This document shows, piece after piece, positions 5,097-18,896 of a stretch of 29,148 nt of DNA. The translations under genes were made by a program, and so were the position numbers. The notes under the pieces were generated by a model. The model was not told the origin of the DNA, ran no database searches, and saw nothing but the letters and a program-made list of their open reading frames with translations. The first letter of the stretch is position 1; every line of letters begins with the position of its first letter. The DNA is from a virus. The stretch covers positions 1 through 29,148 of the IMG/VR virus record IMGVR_UViG_3300048928_000208; one strand, written 5' to 3'.

Positions 5097-5378
5097 TTAC
5101 GCCTCGCGCGTAGGCTCTGCGTCAGCCTGCTCGCCACGCCACATGGTTTTCCAGCCAAGCGCCAGCAGGCGGATGGACCGCACACTCAAGTCCGACTGAA
5201 TGCTATCGCGGGCTGCAAACACTGCGGCCTCAGCCGCGTTCCAGATTACTGCCAGTGGGAAGGCAATCAGCCGCCAGTTGAAGTGCCAGAGAATGAGCAA
5301 AGGGAAGACGATCACCATGGCTGCGCGGCGCAGGGCAGCGTTGCGAATTCGCGCGATCGGGATGCGAGGTCCGCTCAT
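5097..5378 (-). CDS. Small membrane protein between portal and minor head genes
   Basis: This 93-residue protein has one long or two short hydrophobic segments (about residues 20-50, AAMVIVFPLLILWHFNWRLIAFPLAVIWNAAEAAVF). A basic N-terminus (RIPIARIRNAALRRAA) precedes them and a charged C-terminal tail follows. Its ATG overlaps the portal stop (ATGA), so translation is coupled to the portal gene. No family is recognised. A membrane protein inside the head gene cluster is unusual; lysis support or superinfection functions are possible but unsupported. Confidence 0.75.
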   Translation of the reverse strand: MSGPRIPIARIRNAALRRAAMVIVFPLLILWHFNWRLIAFPLAVIWNAAEAAVFAARDSIQSDLSVRSIRLLALGWKTMWRGEQADAEPTREA

Positions 5379-7378
5379 TCCTCGGTGACCTTCCGCTTCC
5401 AGTCGAGATCAAGCGGTTCGAACAGCTCCTCGCCGAACTCCAGCGCGCCCGCGTAAGGCTTGATGACCGTCAGATCGACGCCATCAGGGACCTCATATGA
5501 CAGGGTGATATGTGGGTGGTACGAATCGAAATCGTGGCTGCCGCCCGCCTCCACCATGGTGCGGTGCCGGCTCTCCAGTTCCCACGAGGCGAACAGCAGA
5601 ACGACGGCGTTTTCGCCGAAGCGCTCGATCGCGCGCGGACCGCCGGGCTTCACGCGGATGCGGCCGTTCTCATCGCCCGCCCAGCTCTCGCCCATGCGCA
5701 TCGGATCGACGGCGGTCTTCGAGTAGAGCACCGTCACGTGCAGATCGTCGGCGGAGAGGGTGGACTTGAAGCCATTGTCCTTGGCCCAGGCGATCAGCGC
5801 GGCGCCGTTCAGGAGCTTGCGCTGGACGTAGAGCGGGCGAGGGGCAGCATCGGCGAAGAACCCGGTCACTGCATCGTTCGCAGCCCGGCGAGGCGGCACG
5901 CTTCCATTCGCGCCGCCTCCGCCTTCGAGATTAGGATCACCTCCTTCAGCCGCTATGGCAGACGGGTCAGTACCGTCGTCGTCCGGGTTCAACCCGAACC
6001 TCTCATCGTCCGGCAGTTCGTCCAAAGCACCGTCGAGACCTGGCATCCAACCGTTCTCGATCACGGTGTTCTGGTACGCCTTTGCGAACGCTTCATCCGG
6101 CACAGTGCCCGACGCGCGCACCGATTCAGCCGCTTCCGTCCAGGTCTTGAAGCGCGTGGTTTCTTCGGCCTCCGAAGGCGTCGACAGCGGAGCGAACTGC
6201 CACCAGATTTCCTCCGGGCGAGACCCGAGGGCTGACGGGATCAGCGCCGCGTCGATTTGGTCGAGGCAGGGTGCAAGCTCGAGTTTTTGCCCCTGCTGCA
6301 CCTCGCGATTCCAATTTCGTTCATCATGCGTCCCGGTGGCGTTCATCCCGCCCGGCGAGCGGCCCTGAAGAACGGTGAACGGGATACCCGACACAGCAGC
6401 GACCCGCTGGTCGAAGGCGTCCATCATCGCGGGGATACCAGCCCACGACACCTGATAGTCCTCGATCTTCTCTCCGGCGCCCTGGCCGTCGCCGGAATCG
6501 TAGACTGTGGCGTTCAGCACGCTTTCGCTCAGGGCGATGGCGCTCATGCGGCGGTTCATACGATCCTGCCCGCCGGGCGCGGCGACAGCATCGGTGAGGC
6601 TCGGGATGCCGATGCGCAGGAGCTTGGCCTTGCGCACAAGGGCGGCGAACCATGCCTGCGTGTCGTCGGACTTCTGCACTTCCTTGAATACGCGCATGAG
6701 GCGCGAGCGCCCCCAGAACGCTTGCTCAAGACCGACCCCGTAGCCGACCATCAACGGATCTCCACGGAAACAAACGACGCGGGACGGATGGATCTCGGTC
6801 TGCTCGCTACCGATCTTGAAGGCGCGCGGCAGACCATAGTTCGGGCTGGACAGCTCCTGGTCGATGTCGACGAGGGTGATCTGATCCTTGTGCACGACAT
6901 TGATCGCGACGAGGCCGCCAACGCCGGTGACGTTGATGGGCTGGCTGGGGCTCCCACCCGCGACAAGGATCAGGGCCCCGCCGCCGATGCCGCGCAAGAT
7001 CTCGGCGGCCTTCACCTTGGCGACGAGCCCTAGGCGCTTCTCTTCCTTCTCCAGCTTTTCGATCTGGTCCTGATCAGCCTGCCAGTCGCGCCATTCGCGT
7101 ACGCGGTCCGAGGCCGGCAGTTCGATCACCCGCTGCATCATACCGCTTTCGCAATAGGCAGCGTAGGCAAGCTGCGGCCCGAACATACGGGTCATGACGC
7201 TGCCAAACTGATGCATCGGCGTGGCGGCGAACTGGATAGCCTCTGTGATGCCGTCTCCGAAGTACCGGACTGGCGATGAGGTGGGGGCGGCAATAGGCGC
7301 ACCGCTGGCGTCGAGAATTGGGGAGCCTGCCATAGCGGGACGGTACGTGGCGGGATCGGCTATTTTTACCGCCGTCAC
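5375..7378 (-). CDS. Portal protein (DUF1073) fused to C-terminal Acb1-like 2H phosphoesterase
   Basis: This 667-residue protein has two parts. Residues about 25-430 match the DUF1073 phage portal, the 12-subunit ring through which DNA is packaged. Evidence includes ESGMMQRVIELPASDRVREW, GGALILVAGG, the RVVCFRGDP segment and FTVLQGRSPGGMNATG. A low-complexity linker of about 80 residues follows, rich in Asp, Gly and Pro (about 440-520). Residues about 525-667 carry two H-x-T motifs, H547-V-T549 in LHVTVLYS and H623-I-T625 in YHPHITLSY. These are the signature of 2H phosphoesterases and of the anti-CBASS nuclease Acb1, which degrades cyclic oligonucleotide signals. The portal part packages DNA; the second part probably blocks CBASS immunity. 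The Acb1 role is inferred from motifs and known portal-Acb1 relatives. The start overlaps the TerL stop. Confidence 0.88.
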   Translation of the reverse strand: MTAVKIADPATYRPAMAGSPILDASGAPIAAPTSSPVRYFGDGITEAIQFAATPMHQFGSVMTRMFGPQLAYAAYCESGMMQRVIELPASDRVREWRDWQADQDQIEKLEKEEKRLGLVAKVKAAEILRGIGGGALILVAGGSPSQPINVTGVGGLVAINVVHKDQITLVDIDQELSSPNYGLPRAFKIGSEQTEIHPSRVVCFRGDPLMVGYGVGLEQAFWGRSRLMRVFKEVQKSDDTQAWFAALVRKAKLLRIGIPSLTDAVAAPGGQDRMNRRMSAIALSESVLNATVYDSGDGQGAGEKIEDYQVSWAGIPAMMDAFDQRVAAVSGIPFTVLQGRSPGGMNATGTHDERNWNREVQQGQKLELAPCLDQIDAALIPSALGSRPEEIWWQFAPLSTPSEAEETTRFKTWTEAAESVRASGTVPDEAFAKAYQNTVIENGWMPGLDGALDELPDDERFGLNPDDDGTDPSAIAAEGGDPNLEGGGGANGSVPPRRAANDAVTGFFADAAPRPLYVQRKLLNGAALIAWAKDNGFKSTLSADDLHVTVLYSKTAVDPMRMGESWAGDENGRIRVKPGGPRAIERFGENAVVLLFASWELESRHRTMVEAGGSHDFDSYHPHITLSYEVPDGVDLTVIKPYAGALEFGEELFEPLDLDWKRKVTEE

Positions 7379-8847
7379 CAGGCGTCGAGGTTGTAGCCCA
7401 GGGCCTTCACGGGCGCGAATGCCATCACCACCGCGTCAGCCAGATTGTGCGAGGGGATGCCGCGCGTCTTGAGCGACTTCTTGCTCTCGACCTTCATGCG
7501 CCCGTTAACGCTCTCGCGCCGGGGCTGTGTCAGTTCGCCCGTCAGCTTTGACCGCATCGGGAGGCCTGACGGGATCGAGATCAGCATGTCGGGATCGTAG
7601 GGCAGGCCATTGCGAGCCTGCCAGGTGTTGCGGAAGCGATCGCCCAGCAGGCCCCAACCTTGGGCCTTGAGGTTGGCGAACATGTCGCCATGCGTCTTGC
7701 CGGGTTGATAGTCCTTGTCAGCGTCCTGCGGCGATTCCGATGCGGTCCAGCCCACGAACGAGATCGCGCGCACTGGGTTCGGCCCATGCAGCCGCTTGAA
7801 CTCGCCGGGCACGGAGGCGCCAACGCCGATGTCGTCGATGTGGAGCGTATCCAGTCCCTCGCGGACGACGATCGGGTGCGCATGCGCGGCCGCCGCGTTC
7901 GGGTTCTCGTCCTGCCATTCCTCAAGACCGGACAGCACGCAGCCATACCGCCAGGCCAGCGCGTTTGGATCGTTCGACTTGGGCGCCACCACATCGCCCT
8001 CGACGCCGCCGGAGATGTCCATGCCGCCGATCTTGCCGCCGCCCATGGGGAAGCCCTTGATGTGCAGGTGCGCATCGATCGCGGCCTCGATCCACTTGGG
8101 CTTGATGATGGCGAGTGCGCTGTCTGCGACCGGCTCGCCTAGGTAGACGTGCCGATACAGTTCGGGGTCCGTCTGCTCCATCAGGGCAGCGTCGTCGGCC
8201 AACTCCTGCGGGAAGAACGGGTTATCGGTGTAGTTCACCTTGAGGGTGATGCAGTAGGGCTTGCCGTTGTGGACCGTCGGATAGATCGGGTCCGTGACGA
8301 ACGACTGATAGATGAAATCGAGCGGGCTGGCTGGGTTGAAGCAGACGTATATCTCCGACCCGCTCTTGCGCATGGTCGGCACCAGGGCGTTCCAGCTGTC
8401 CTTGGTGATGCTCTCGCCCTCGTCGATGAAGGCGGCATCGAAGTTGGAAAAGCCCTTGAGCTTCTGGTTCTGGAGGCGCTTGGACGATGCGCGGATGCCA
8501 GAGAACTTGAACACACCGCCCGACGACGGGCAGGATATCTCGGTCTTGGTGATGTCGAAGTAGGCACCCAGGTTGCGGCGGTCGATCTCCTCGACGATCT
8601 CCTGATAGCTGCTCTCGGCGATGGCCTCCATCAGCTCGCGGAAGCACACCACGCGCCAGCCACTGTAGAGCACGTTGTTGACGAGGATCGTGATGACGGT
8701 GCGGGTCTTCGAGCTGCCACGGCCGCCGTACGCCACTTTGAAGCGCGCGGGCTGGAGGAATGGCTCGAAGACTTCCGGCAGTTCGCATTCGAAGACCGGG
8801 CCGCCGTTATGGCCCATGCCCAGAGTGATGGAGGTGTGGGCGTTCAC
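7375..8847 (-). CDS. Terminase large subunit (PBSX/Gp2-type TerL)
   Basis: This 490-residue terminase has an N-terminal packaging ATPase and a C-terminal RNase H-like nuclease. The Walker A motif is GGRGSSKT (41-48) and the Walker B is AFIDEGE (139-145). The SGIRASSKRLQNQKLKGF segment lies between them and a VCFNPAS coupling motif follows at about 168-174. In the nuclease half, GGMDISGGVEGDVV, LHIDDIGVGAS and SHNLADAVVMAF carry the likely metal-binding Asp residues. It pumps DNA into the prohead through the portal encoded next. Start and stop both overlap neighbours by 4 nt, showing tight coupling. Confidence 0.95.
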   Translation of the reverse strand: MNAHTSITLGMGHNGGPVFECELPEVFEPFLQPARFKVAYGGRGSSKTRTVITILVNNVLYSGWRVVCFRELMEAIAESSYQEIVEEIDRRNLGAYFDITKTEISCPSSGGVFKFSGIRASSKRLQNQKLKGFSNFDAAFIDEGESITKDSWNALVPTMRKSGSEIYVCFNPASPLDFIYQSFVTDPIYPTVHNGKPYCITLKVNYTDNPFFPQELADDAALMEQTDPELYRHVYLGEPVADSALAIIKPKWIEAAIDAHLHIKGFPMGGGKIGGMDISGGVEGDVVAPKSNDPNALAWRYGCVLSGLEEWQDENPNAAAAHAHPIVVREGLDTLHIDDIGVGASVPGEFKRLHGPNPVRAISFVGWTASESPQDADKDYQPGKTHGDMFANLKAQGWGLLGDRFRNTWQARNGLPYDPDMLISIPSGLPMRSKLTGELTQPRRESVNGRMKVESKKSLKTRGIPSHNLADAVVMAFAPVKALGYNLDAW

Positions 8848-16094: not shown

Positions 16095-16409
16095 TCAGGC
16101 TCCCATGACTTCTGGATTGGTCTGGAAGGACCCGACACGGCGACGTTCGAGTTCTGCGATGAGATCAGCAGTGGACACGGTGTGGAGCGGTCCAACGTCT
16201 ACGATCTCGATAGCGCGCGCTCGGTTCGGCGACCGGCGGATGCGACCCCGCTCTTCGAGGGCAGCAAGCAGGCGATGCACACCGCTCTTGGAGGCGAGGC
16301 CCACAGCGTCCCGCATTTCAAGGAAGCTCGGCGCTACTCCGCCCGTGCTATCGATATAGCCCGTAAGGTAGGAGAGCAGGCTGCTCTGCTTTGTGGTGAG
16401 GGTGATCAT
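16095..16409 (-). CDS. LexA-type winged-helix DNA-binding protein without peptidase
   Basis: From the ATG at 16409 (ATGA overlap with the cro-like gene) this is a 104-residue protein. Residues 1-70 match the LexA N-terminal winged helix ([54 protein letters not shown]). The S24 peptidase domain of LexA is missing. It is probably a second regulator encoded just after the cro-like gene in the PR operon. What it binds is not known. Confidence 0.8.
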
Positions 16410-16621
16410 GCGGCGATCCGCCCGGGGTTGCTGGGCAGGCGGTCGAAGTCGGCCGTCGATGCTTTCCATCCCTGACGCGCGAGGCGCTCGATGATTTTCA
16501 GCTGCCACTCAAACGGAACGCGACGGCCCTGTTGGCGCCACTTTCTGCGAGTTGCCTCGTTCACGCCCAGCGCGGTTGCTTCCCGGTCGACGATGGACCA
16601 ATCGAGATGTTTGTGAGCCAT
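16406..16621 (-). CDS. Cro-like DNA-binding protein
   Basis: From the ATG at 16621 this is a 71-residue protein with a helix-turn-helix: [35 protein letters not shown]. This is the short YdaS/Cro-like form. It is the first gene from PR, diverging from the repressor. The ATG lies about 7 nt after the candidate -10, so its mRNA may be leaderless and no ribosome binding site is present. A TTG at 16639 in frame is an alternative start, but it falls inside the operator. Confidence 0.75.
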
Positions 16622-16625
16622 GTCG

Positions 16626-16656
16626 ATTGTATGGGACAATTTGTCCCCTTCGTCAA
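16626..16656 (-). promoter_or_regulatory. PR promoter (cro-like / left operon)
   Basis: On the minus strand, TTGACG (16651-16656), a 17-bp spacer and CATACA (16628-16633) form the promoter; TACAAT at 16626-16631 with a 19-bp spacer is an alternative -10. The predicted start is at or near 16621, the first base of the cro-like ATG. The spacer holds operator O1. The layout is nearly identical to PL at 18303. Confidence 0.7.
16633..16647. promoter_or_regulatory. Operator O1 (oR)
   Basis: GGGACAATTTGTCCC is a perfect palindrome (7-bp arms with one central base). It lies in the spacer of PR, so a bound repressor would block the promoter. The same 15-bp motif occurs in three other places, two at PL. 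Confidence 0.8.
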
Positions 16657-16670
16657 GGACAAGGTGTCAC
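16656..16670. promoter_or_regulatory. Operator O2 (oR)
   Basis: AGGACAAGGTGTCAC matches the GGGACAAnTTGTCCC consensus at 12 of 15 positions. Its centre is 23 bp from O1, just upstream of the PR -35. The same spacing is found in the pair at PL, which supports it despite the mismatches. Confidence 0.65.
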
Positions 16671-16705
16671 GCGAATTTGCGCGAGAGACGCGGCATATTC
16701 GCGCC

Positions 16706-17191
16706 ATGCCTACAGTCCCTCAAGAAAGCGAATTCAACTCCCAGGTTCAGAAGCGTGTTGCTGAGATGCGCACAGCTAATGGCTGGACGCAGGAAGAGAT
16801 GGCGCGCTTTCTCGATGTGCCCAAGGATCGCTACAAAAAGTATGAGAACAGGCAGGGGTCTGCCTTTCCCTTATACCTGCTCCCTGTAGTCGCGAGGCTA
16901 ACCAACCGATCGCTGTCGTACCTACTGACCGGACGAGATGATTTCGGGGTTGGTAAGGTCAAGTCGAGGCAATCGGAGGCCCCTAGTGCAGAAGCGCTTG
17001 AGCGGGCCCTGGCGGACAACTTGCCGATGGCTGTGACCGTGCCTGAGGAGAAGCGCGCGCGATTTCTCGCTGAAGTCGTTGCAGAAACCCTTGGGCTTCC
17101 AGCATCTCCTCTGACCAACTCGGCCAGCGCTCACTCGAAAAAATCGGACGATCTCGCAGGAGGCGCTCTTCCTCCCGAGACCACCACATGA
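16706..17191 (+). CDS. Phage repressor-like protein (XRE helix-turn-helix, no peptidase)
   Basis: From the ATG at 16706 this is a 161-residue protein. Residues about 14-76 form an XRE helix-turn-helix (VQKRVAEMRTANGWTQEEMARFLDVPKDRYKKYENRQG, then LYLLPVVARLTNRSLSYLLTG). The C-terminal half (about 90-145) is helical and polar, with no S24 peptidase Ser-Lys dyad. It diverges from the cro-like gene, with the operators between. It is probably the lysogeny repressor binding GGGACA-type operators. It cannot be cleaved by the RecA/S24 route, so induction must work otherwise. A longer in-frame extension upstream covers the operators and is not used. Confidence 0.8.
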   Translation: MPTVPQESEFNSQVQKRVAEMRTANGWTQEEMARFLDVPKDRYKKYENRQGSAFPLYLLPVVARLTNRSLSYLLTGRDDFGVGKVKSRQSEAPSAEALERALADNLPMAVTVPEEKRARFLAEVVAETLGLPASPLTNSASAHSKKSDDLAGGALPPETTT

Positions 17192-17536
17192 ACTGAATTC
17201 GGGCGACCGCACAAGTTCGGGAGCAAGGGGCGCAGCCAGCATTGCAGGCGGGCTCGCTCAGGATATTTCGATTTTCCAGCAACGATTCGCCCTCCTTGTT
17301 CCCGGTCTGTTCTTGTACCACGGGTCGGGTGGGAACGGTATAGGATTTTTCCTACACGAACCGATTTGGTTCGTTTAAGGTCTGCTGCAGGAGGGTGCGG
17401 AGTCTATGCTATAAAGAGTGTCATTCCCGGCAAGACCGGCTAGAGGCTCGGCTCACCGCAAGATGGCCAACCATTTTTTCAACCATTCATTGACTTGTTC
17501 GATGTTATCCACAATCTCTGAGTGCGGAGAATCAAC
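17192..17536. other. Intergenic region with inverted repeats, DnaA box and extended -10
   Basis: A stretch of 345 bp after the repressor is without a gene. It is AT-richer than its surroundings. It holds two small inverted repeats (TAGGA-TTTT-TCCTA at 17341-17354; ACGAACC-GATTT-GGTTCGT at 17356-17374). The second is followed by TT only and could weakly terminate the repressor mRNA or bind a protein. It also has an extended -10, TGCTATAAA (17407-17415), and a perfect DnaA box, TTATCCACA (17505-17513). Confidence 0.55.
17407..17415 (+). promoter_or_regulatory. Candidate extended -10 promoter for the immunity-region accessory genes
   Basis: TGCTATAAA matches the extended -10 form TGnTATAAT. No good -35 is found at the usual distance. 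It would give a leader of about 115 nt before the gene at 17537. Confidence 0.35.
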
Positions 17537-17743
17537 ATGTCACACCACGATAAAAACCTGATCGCTTACGCGGCCGGTCCGCGTGGGCGCAAGCGACTGT
17601 TCCGCATGATCATGCGCGGCAGCCGAGAAATCACTTTCAAGCCCACCATCCCAGATATCAAACTCGGCTCTGTCGCCGATGACTGGCGGTCAGTGGGCTA
17701 CGACCTTCGTTCCGCGATGAATTCCCTGGAGCATTGTGAGTAA
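17537..17743 (+). CDS. Small unknown gene in the immunity region
   Basis: From the ATG at 17537 (CGGAG about 8 nt upstream) this is a 68-residue protein. It is basic at the start (HHDKNLIAYAAGPRGRKRLFRMIMRGSREITFKPT) and ends polar (WRSVGYDLRSAMNSLEH). No family is recognised. It overlaps the next gene by 8 nt, and together they form a two-gene unit between the repressor and PL on the repressor strand, a place often occupied by lysogenic conversion or exclusion genes. Confidence 0.65.
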   Translation: MSHHDKNLIAYAAGPRGRKRLFRMIMRGSREITFKPTIPDIKLGSVADDWRSVGYDLRSAMNSLEHCE

Positions 17744-18227
17744 TCCGCCAGCGACCCGCGAGAAGGGTAACGAAGACGAAGCCACCCTCCTGAGGAAATT
17801 GGAACCCTTGGTTAAGCCAGGTCAGGGGCCCAAGGTCGTTGAGATGGTCGGAATGACCGTTAGTAAAATGCACAGCGGTCCGCTTCCGCCGCCAGAAGAC
17901 TTAGCCGGTTATGAGGCAGCCCACCCTGGCGCGGCAGAGCGTATTCTTGCCATGGCGGAGCGCAATCAGGCTCACCGCCACAAGCAGGAAAACCGAATGG
18001 TGATTGGCGAGTTTGGTCTGCGCTTTATGGGGCAGGTCGGCGCACTACTCACGATCGCGATGCTGGCGGGCCTGGTAGGCCTTTGCTCCTATCTTAAGCA
18101 GCCGCTTGCAGCAGGTGTTGTCGCCGCAATTGGGGCGGCTTCGGCTTATTTCCTCCATCGCGATCGAGCGAACCGTGAGCCGAAAGCCAGCAACCAGCCT
18201 TCGAAGCAACCTCGGCGCAAGAAGTAA
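17736..18227 (+). CDS. DUF2335 family predicted membrane protein
   Basis: This 163-residue protein starts at GTG 17736, with GGAG 5 nt upstream. The middle (about 45-85) has the DUF2335 signature SGPLPPPEDLAGYEAAHPGAAERILAMAERNQAHRHKQE. Two transmembrane segments follow (about 100-119 and 123-140) and then a basic tail ending KKPRRKK-like. The family is widespread in bacteria and phages and has no settled role. Beside a repressor and before a terminator, it is probably expressed in the lysogen and may act at the membrane, for example in superinfection exclusion. That role is inference. Confidence 0.85.
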   Translation: MSNPPATREKGNEDEATLLRKLEPLVKPGQGPKVVEMVGMTVSKMHSGPLPPPEDLAGYEAAHPGAAERILAMAERNQAHRHKQENRMVIGEFGLRFMGQVGALLTIAMLAGLVGLCSYLKQPLAAGVVAAIGAASAYFLHRDRANREPKASNQPSKQPRRKK

Positions 18228-18250
18228 CTTCCGAAATCATTTCGCCATAG

Positions 18251-18278
18251 ACAGCCCCGCTCCGGCGGGGTTTCTTTT
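18251..18278 (+). terminator. Rho-independent terminator after the DUF2335 gene
   Basis: CCCCGC (18255-18260) pairs with GCGGGG (18265-18270) around a TCCG loop, followed by TTTCTTTT. It ends the repressor-strand unit and insulates PL. Confidence 0.85.
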
Positions 18279-18288
18279 GCAGGCGAAG

Positions 18289-18303
18289 GGGACAAATTGT
18301 CCT
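18289..18303. promoter_or_regulatory. Operator O3 (oL)
   Basis: GGGACAAATTGTCCT is a copy of the 15-bp operator with one arm mismatch. It lies immediately upstream of the PL -35, sharing one base with it, in the same position as O2 at PR. Confidence 0.75.
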
Positions 18304-18331
18304 TGACGTGAGGGACATATTGTCCCATAAG
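18303..18331 (+). promoter_or_regulatory. PL promoter (right early operon)
   Basis: TTGACG (18303-18308), a 17-bp spacer and CATAAG (18326-18331) form the promoter, with operator O4 inside the spacer. The predicted start is near 18338 and the first gene starts at 18387. The stretch TTGTCCTTGACG and the GGGACA..ATTGTCCCATA block are shared with PR. Confidence 0.7.
18312..18326. promoter_or_regulatory. Operator O4 (oL)
   Basis: GGGACATATTGTCCC differs from the O1 sequence at one position on the same reading. It lies 3 bp after the PL -35, as O1 does at PR, with its centre 23 bp from O3. Confidence 0.8.
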
Positions 18332-18386: not shown

Positions 18387-18896
18387 ATGGCAACATCTCT
18401 TCCAATCCCGGAATTGTCGCCCCGCCAGACGGCGCGCTTCAACGCTTCGTTCCTAGTGGATGCGGACACCGGCTGCTGGAACTGGATCAAGTCCTCGGAG
18501 ACGAAGGGCTACGGCAGGTTCCGCATCCGCAAGAACTCCTACCGCGCTCACCGCGTCGCTTTTGCGATCAGCAATGGCGAATGCCCGGTCGACCGGATGG
18601 TGTGCCACACCTGCGACAATCGGCTCTGCGTTAATCCTGAGCACCTGTTCGCCGGTACGGCTCAGGACAACATCGACGACATGATGGCCAAAGGGCGCAA
18701 CGCCCCCGGATGCGACATGCCGCATCTGCGCGTACAGCGTCCTGCTGCACCGGCAACGCCGACCTGCATCAAGTGCGGCCACGTTCGCTCGGACGACTAC
18801 AAATACGTCAGTCGCGGAGGTCGTCATCGCCAATCCTGCCGGAAGTGCAAGGCGCTCCGCAATGCCGCACGCTCGGTCTCGCAGGTGGTGTCGTGA
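18387..18896 (+). CDS. HNH endonuclease (HNH_3 type) with extra zinc ribbon
   Basis: This 169-residue protein is the first gene of the PL operon, with a GGAGG ribosome binding site. The N-terminal part is a homing-type HNH_3 nuclease: [16 protein letters not shown] (30-45), [16 protein letters not shown] (52-67), and the metal-binding [20 protein letters not shown] (72-91), then [14 protein letters not shown] second Cys set (C127/C130, C151/C154) forms a zinc ribbon. Such genes are often mobile or act in DNA processing. Its place next to the operator suggests insertion early in the operon. A homing role is not shown. Confidence 0.85.

Follow-up and report, generated by a model that had tools for sequence, protein, structure and literature searches.

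The 29,148-nucleotide (nt) stretch of viral DNA examined here (IMG/VR record IMGVR_UViG_3300048928_000208), called the window and taken as a whole, carries four palindromic sites, one pair between divergent cro-like and cI-like genes and another before the operon to the right. This arrangement raises the question of whether the pairs are the oR and oL operators of a lambda-like switch and, if so, which protein reads them. Our analysis indicates that the region is very probably the immunity region of a temperate phage, with a lambda-like switch that CI would run at the four sites. The genes, sites and promoters at issue, the promoter elements being predicted from sequence, are as follows.

16406-16621, minus strand: cro-like gene, 71 amino acids (profile match to solved Cro proteins; helical model).
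16628-16656, minus strand: promoter-like PR, TTGACG (16656-16651)-N17-CATACA (16633-16628), with the cro ATG 6 nt on.
16633-16647: oR1, inner site of the left operator, GGGACAATTTGTCCC, 0 mismatches, an exact palindrome within the PR spacer.
16656-16670: oR2, outer site of the left operator, AGGACAAGGTGTCAC, 2 mismatches, one base in common with the PR -35.
16694-16699, plus strand: -10-like CATATT of PRM, the presumed cI promoter, 6 nt ahead of the cI ATG and the same in relatives.
16706-17191, plus strand: cI-like repressor gene, 161 amino acids, HTH_3 domain (domain searches, profile search, structure model).
18289-18303: outer oL site, GGGACAAATTGTCCT, 1 mismatch, which is the base in common with the PL -35.
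18303-18331, plus strand: promoter-like PL, TTGACG-N17-CATAAG, -35 at 18303-18308, facing the right operon.
18312-18326: inner oL site, GGGACATATTGTCCC, 0 mismatches, an exact palindrome within the PL spacer.

A sequence-only reading of the window had described four GGGACA-n3-TGTCCC sites. All four lie at the positions that it gave, but only two of the four fit the motif exactly, the others departing from it at one and two bases. The 23-bp spacing between site centers was confirmed for the left and the right pair alike, as was a TTGACG hexamer that lies 3 bp from the inner site and shares one base with the outer one. Repeated dyad operators are thus present at both PR and PL, approximately 1.66 kb apart. 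The left and right modules form a 39-nt inverted repeat that is 85% complementary. They had been called a duplicated module, which is apt in that there are two like copies, but no recent duplication event is evident; their likeness is put down to a common constraint, with oR2 retaining its own weaker form across phages. A 19-nt exact inverted match was also seen between 16634-16652 (oR1 plus flank) and 18284-18302 (the outer oL site plus flank); it pairs oR1 with the nonequivalent site of the right pair and may be due to chance atop the common motif.

Palindromes of this kind could arise by chance, since GC-rich DNA does contain short palindromes, or could be promoter sequence conserved just for polymerase binding, given that they overlap the -35 and -10 elements. 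However, pairs of similar quality were absent from 300 dinucleotide shuffles of the window, whichever spacing between 15 and 30 bp was allowed, and the two exact sites observed compare with a mean of 0.007 in those shuffles. In addition, what is conserved among relatives is the dyads and their distances to the start codons, whereas the centers of the spacers vary. Chance or promoter conservation is therefore a very improbable explanation.

The motif had been proposed as a way to recognize relatives, and pattern searches of IMG/VR and of genomes did retrieve loci with CI and Cro homologues (loci are numbered with the prefix L). The close module pattern identified two phages in IMG/VR, L005 and L006, each with all four sites and with homologues of Cro (48-49% identical) and of CI (44% identical in the helix-turn-helix [HTH] part). 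When 257 billion bases of genomes were searched with a 20-base pattern, only two loci were found: L014, from Sphingopyxis bauzanensis, has four sites plus both genes, and L013, from a Microvirga metagenome-assembled genome, has both genes, a pair of sites following cI, and a lone site ahead of each gene. A looser pattern returned 13 stretches from IMG/VR, and a relative of CI or Cro is encoded in 10 of them. Variant sites that start with A or T are present at L019, L020, L023, and L026, and the four-site layout with the same genes is present in L005/L006, L014, L030, L031, and L035. When 399 genomes of the Sphingopyxis bauzanensis family were scanned by pattern, the only additions were single, unpaired near-matches. 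Across the relatives, the paired sites, their spacing, the promoter overlap, and the gene order recur with CI and Cro proteins that are 21-63% identical to those of the window, and the site arrangement is common to over a dozen distantly related phages. This recurrence strongly supports the earlier proposal that these are oR and oL sites of a lambda-like switch.

Pattern matches at L024, L027, and L028 were left uncounted because they have no recognized CI or Cro homologue. L028 does contain a pair at 1045-1082, AGGACATATTGTCCT and AGGACAAAATGTCCT, 23 bp apart and close to a longer repressor-like open reading frame (ORF; 1192-1839). Since this locus lacks a CI or Cro relative of the window's family, the same operator code may have been reached there by an unrelated repressor. 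L005 also encodes, at 7166-8158 on the minus strand, a protein in which a short repeat (GAASSTGDY/GAASSTGYQ) recurs about 15 times in near-identical form.

The geometry of the left operator is fixed relative to the genes. In six distinct phages (the window, L014, L030, L031, L032, and L035), the two site centers lie exactly 66 and 43 nt ahead of the first base of the cI start codon. A separation of exactly 84 nt between the start codons of cro and cI holds in these six and in L023. The inner sites are almost perfect in every phage, and oR2 retains a degenerate half on its PRM side; by the look of the sequence, oR1 would be the stronger site and oR2 the weaker. A -10-like hexamer (CATATT, CATAAT, or similar) stands 6 nt ahead of cI in the window and its relatives, and the PR -10 stands 6 nt ahead of the cro ATG at a position that is likewise conserved. 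Because these elements lie 6 nt before each ATG, both the cI and the cro mRNAs are probably leaderless. Neither in the window nor in the relatives does PRM show a recognizable -35 at the expected distance, and the center of oR2, 43 nt ahead of the cI ATG, is at a position that would fit activation of PRM by CI.

Protein searches were also performed. Single-protein searches of IMG/VR for close relatives of Cro or CI found none, and CI matches in phage and plasmid records were dismissed as weak, generic HTH similarity. A search with the CI profile only identified eight loci, seven of them distinct. L033, L035, L036, and L037 were found by the CI profile and missed by every DNA pattern, and in all four the 120 nt upstream of cI contain a site with no more than two mismatches. 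Shuffling the same DNA would produce such a site in 0.3-1.7% of cases, and 0 of 130 control stretches from the same contigs had one, with the caveat that the profile had been seeded with site-bearing members. The four-site layout is complete in L035; the other three loci have looser versions of it. The Cro profile identified Sphingopyxis bauzanensis only among 399 Sphingomonadales genomes, and its matches in 385 alphaproteobacterial genomes fell mostly inside long frames and had no paired sites. The family is rare among sequenced genomes, since the Cro-profile and pattern scans of the 399-genome sets added so little. Literature searches on the motif and on the carph-isopro family (see below) returned nothing relevant.

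A CI profile built from 15 homologues matches the 434 repressor (1.3e-5), the HTH part of the CI structure model is confident, and Foldseek with that model retrieved generic HTH repressors. Domain searches with CI found HTH domains only and no C-terminal peptidase or cooperativity domain, which sets it apart from lambda-type CI (HTH plus S24 peptidase), and most CI homologues are just 79-106 amino acids long. Since CI has no peptidase domain, SOS self-cleavage is unlikely. The cut-off of 80 bits for RstR family repressors (NF041951) was not reached by the window protein (26.2 bits) or by that of L005 (35.6 bits). The Cro-like protein has no match in Pfam, in PHROG, or in the phage and plasmid collections, and Foldseek with its model gave no significant match. 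A profile of 14 Cro homologues did match solved Cro proteins, namely, XPH1 (2.9e-5), 3bd1 (4e-5), and N15 Gp39 (0.0076). Against the NCBIfam family carph-isopro (NF046037), the Cro-like protein scored 19.6 bits (E value, 0.00076), under the 38-bit cut-off; judged by eye, the Cro proteins of the more distant site-bearing loci L020, L022, and L029 are nearer the carph-isopro type.

Sites with this geometry are conserved and associated with the CI family, which bears on the question of which protein reads them. They might be read mainly by the Cro-like protein, with CI acting elsewhere or by protein contact: Cro is found at nearly all site-bearing loci, its HTH is conserved, and the two repressors of phiKO2 differ in part of their operators (PMC4997575). 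Several findings make this unlikely. L019 keeps CI and the sites with a different protein in the place of cro, and paired sites are absent from 30 carph-isopro Cro-like loci of Sphingomonadales, a set in which no fetched stretch encodes a CI relative. Two sites per operator, oL included, also better fit a lysogenic repressor. A weaker, post hoc point is that CI residue 44 or 45 is altered (for K) in three of the loci whose sites start with A or T (R in L019, R in L023, and Q in L020), with the caveat that L022 is altered there too and its site is not. Because the sites follow the CI family and not the carph-isopro Cro-like domain, CI, the 16706 product that had been named as the probable ligand, is our best inference and the better-supported ligand of the two. 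Cro is predicted, very likely correctly, to act at the switch as well.

Another factor, either a host regulator or the product of the gene next to cro, might instead bind both operators and so place the phage under outside control.

16095-16406, minus strand: LexA-type DNA-binding domain that lacks the peptidase part (domain searches), directly after cro.

The presence of this gene favors such an explanation, but the relatives keep the sites and not the LexA-type gene, whose place is taken by others (zinc finger, cytosine methylase, and others). The sites are also unlike the alphaproteobacterial LexA box, GTTCN7GTTC. Control by such a factor thus has very little probability, and CI remains the favored ligand.

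With CI as ligand, the switch would work as follows. In a lysogen, CI would bind oR1, oR2, and both oL sites. It would thereby block both PR, the promoter of cro and of the leftward operon, and PL, the promoter of the recombination and integrase operon, because each inner site lies within a promoter spacer and each outer site reaches a -35 box. From oR2, 43 nt before the cI start, CI could contact RNA polymerase and so turn on its own promoter, which has no -35 and would give a leaderless mRNA. The 71-amino-acid Cro-like protein made from PR is the probable opposing regulator and would turn cI off.

Three points weigh against this lambda-like switch. The Microvirga locus L013 lacks the left pair, having single sites before cro and before cI. 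A third site per operator is absent in the window and close relatives, where the oR3 position is empty; a third oR site was found in L037, L020, and L019 only. Finally, CI of the window and its relatives lacks the C-terminal domain that confers cooperativity and SOS cleavage in lambda CI.

The region was compared with known immunity systems. As in lambda, cro and cI are divergent with operator DNA between them, operators stand at the cro promoter and at a promoter beyond cI, genes lie between cI and oL, and the integrase ends the PL operon, the order being mirrored in the window. The likeness extends to distance, with the same 23-bp site spacing and with oR2 at a PRM-activating distance: in lambda, PRM has a poor -35 and is activated by a CI dimer at oR2 whose center is near -42. 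Activation of PRM by CI at OR1/OR2 is documented for lambda, as is an OR-OL distance of 2.3 kb (PMC3708714). The window differs from lambda in its shorter oR-oL distance, its mirrored orientation, its unrelated operator sequence, its two rather than three sites per operator, and its CI without the C-terminal domain. The telomere phages N15, phiKO2, and PY54 (immB) have a similarly compact cB(cI)/cro intergenic region of 80-116 bp, and one of the solved structures that the window Cro profile matches is N15 Cro. In PY54, mapping has shown the cI and cro mRNAs to be leaderless (PMC4488713), and the repressor of these phages, like the window CI, lacks LexA-type cleavage residues (PMC4997575). They differ in that their oL controls repA of a plasmid prophage. 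The operators of Rhizobium phage 16-3 are of the ACAA/TTGT type, unlike those of the window. This phage also infects an alphaproteobacterium, and each of its two operators has two sites (oL1, oL2, oR1, and oR2, bound by the C repressor) (PMC12429752); three sites per operator are hence not defining for the wider kind. Assignment of the predicted switch to the lambda/N15/16-3 kind is well supported; its operator code is its own, and its repressor lacks the usual C-terminal domain.

The surrounding genes were also mapped. The cro operon heads leftward to terminase (7375-8847) and portal (5375-7378) genes, and the features to the right of cI are as follows.

17537-17743 and 17736-18227, plus strand: two ORFs between cI and oL (domain searches), at the lambda rex position.
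18253-18272, plus strand: terminator-like hairpin, adjoining oL on its upstream side.
18387-18896, plus strand: HNH endonuclease (domain searches), first gene of the right (PL) operon.

The 17736-18227 product is a DUF2335 membrane protein in the PHROG category moron, and the PL operon encodes the HNH endonuclease, an ERF recombinase, a helicase, a methylase and, last, a tyrosine integrase. A perfect palindrome, ACGAACCGATTTGGTTCGT, at 17356-17374 between cI and the next gene is a possible operator for another regulator. The 667-amino-acid frame at 5375-7378 (minus strand) joins a portal protein (residues 73-418) to a C-terminal Acb1 anti-CBASS domain (residues 515-662; E value, 1.8e-38); a literature search found no paper on such a fusion.

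Tentatively, and at somewhat less than even odds, these phages of alphaproteobacteria may carry a minimal lambda switch, in which an 84-bp divergent region, two sites per operator, leaderless regulators, and an HTH-only CI at a PRM-activating position would suffice for stability without a cooperativity or SOS-cleavage domain. Natural variants of this kind would offer a way to ask which parts of lambda a stable switch needs. The analysis defines an operator code, together with a fixed geometry, for one family of temperate alphaproteobacterial phages, members of which occur in Sphingopyxis and Microvirga. This code locates immunity regions straight from DNA and could predict which prophages have a common immunity.
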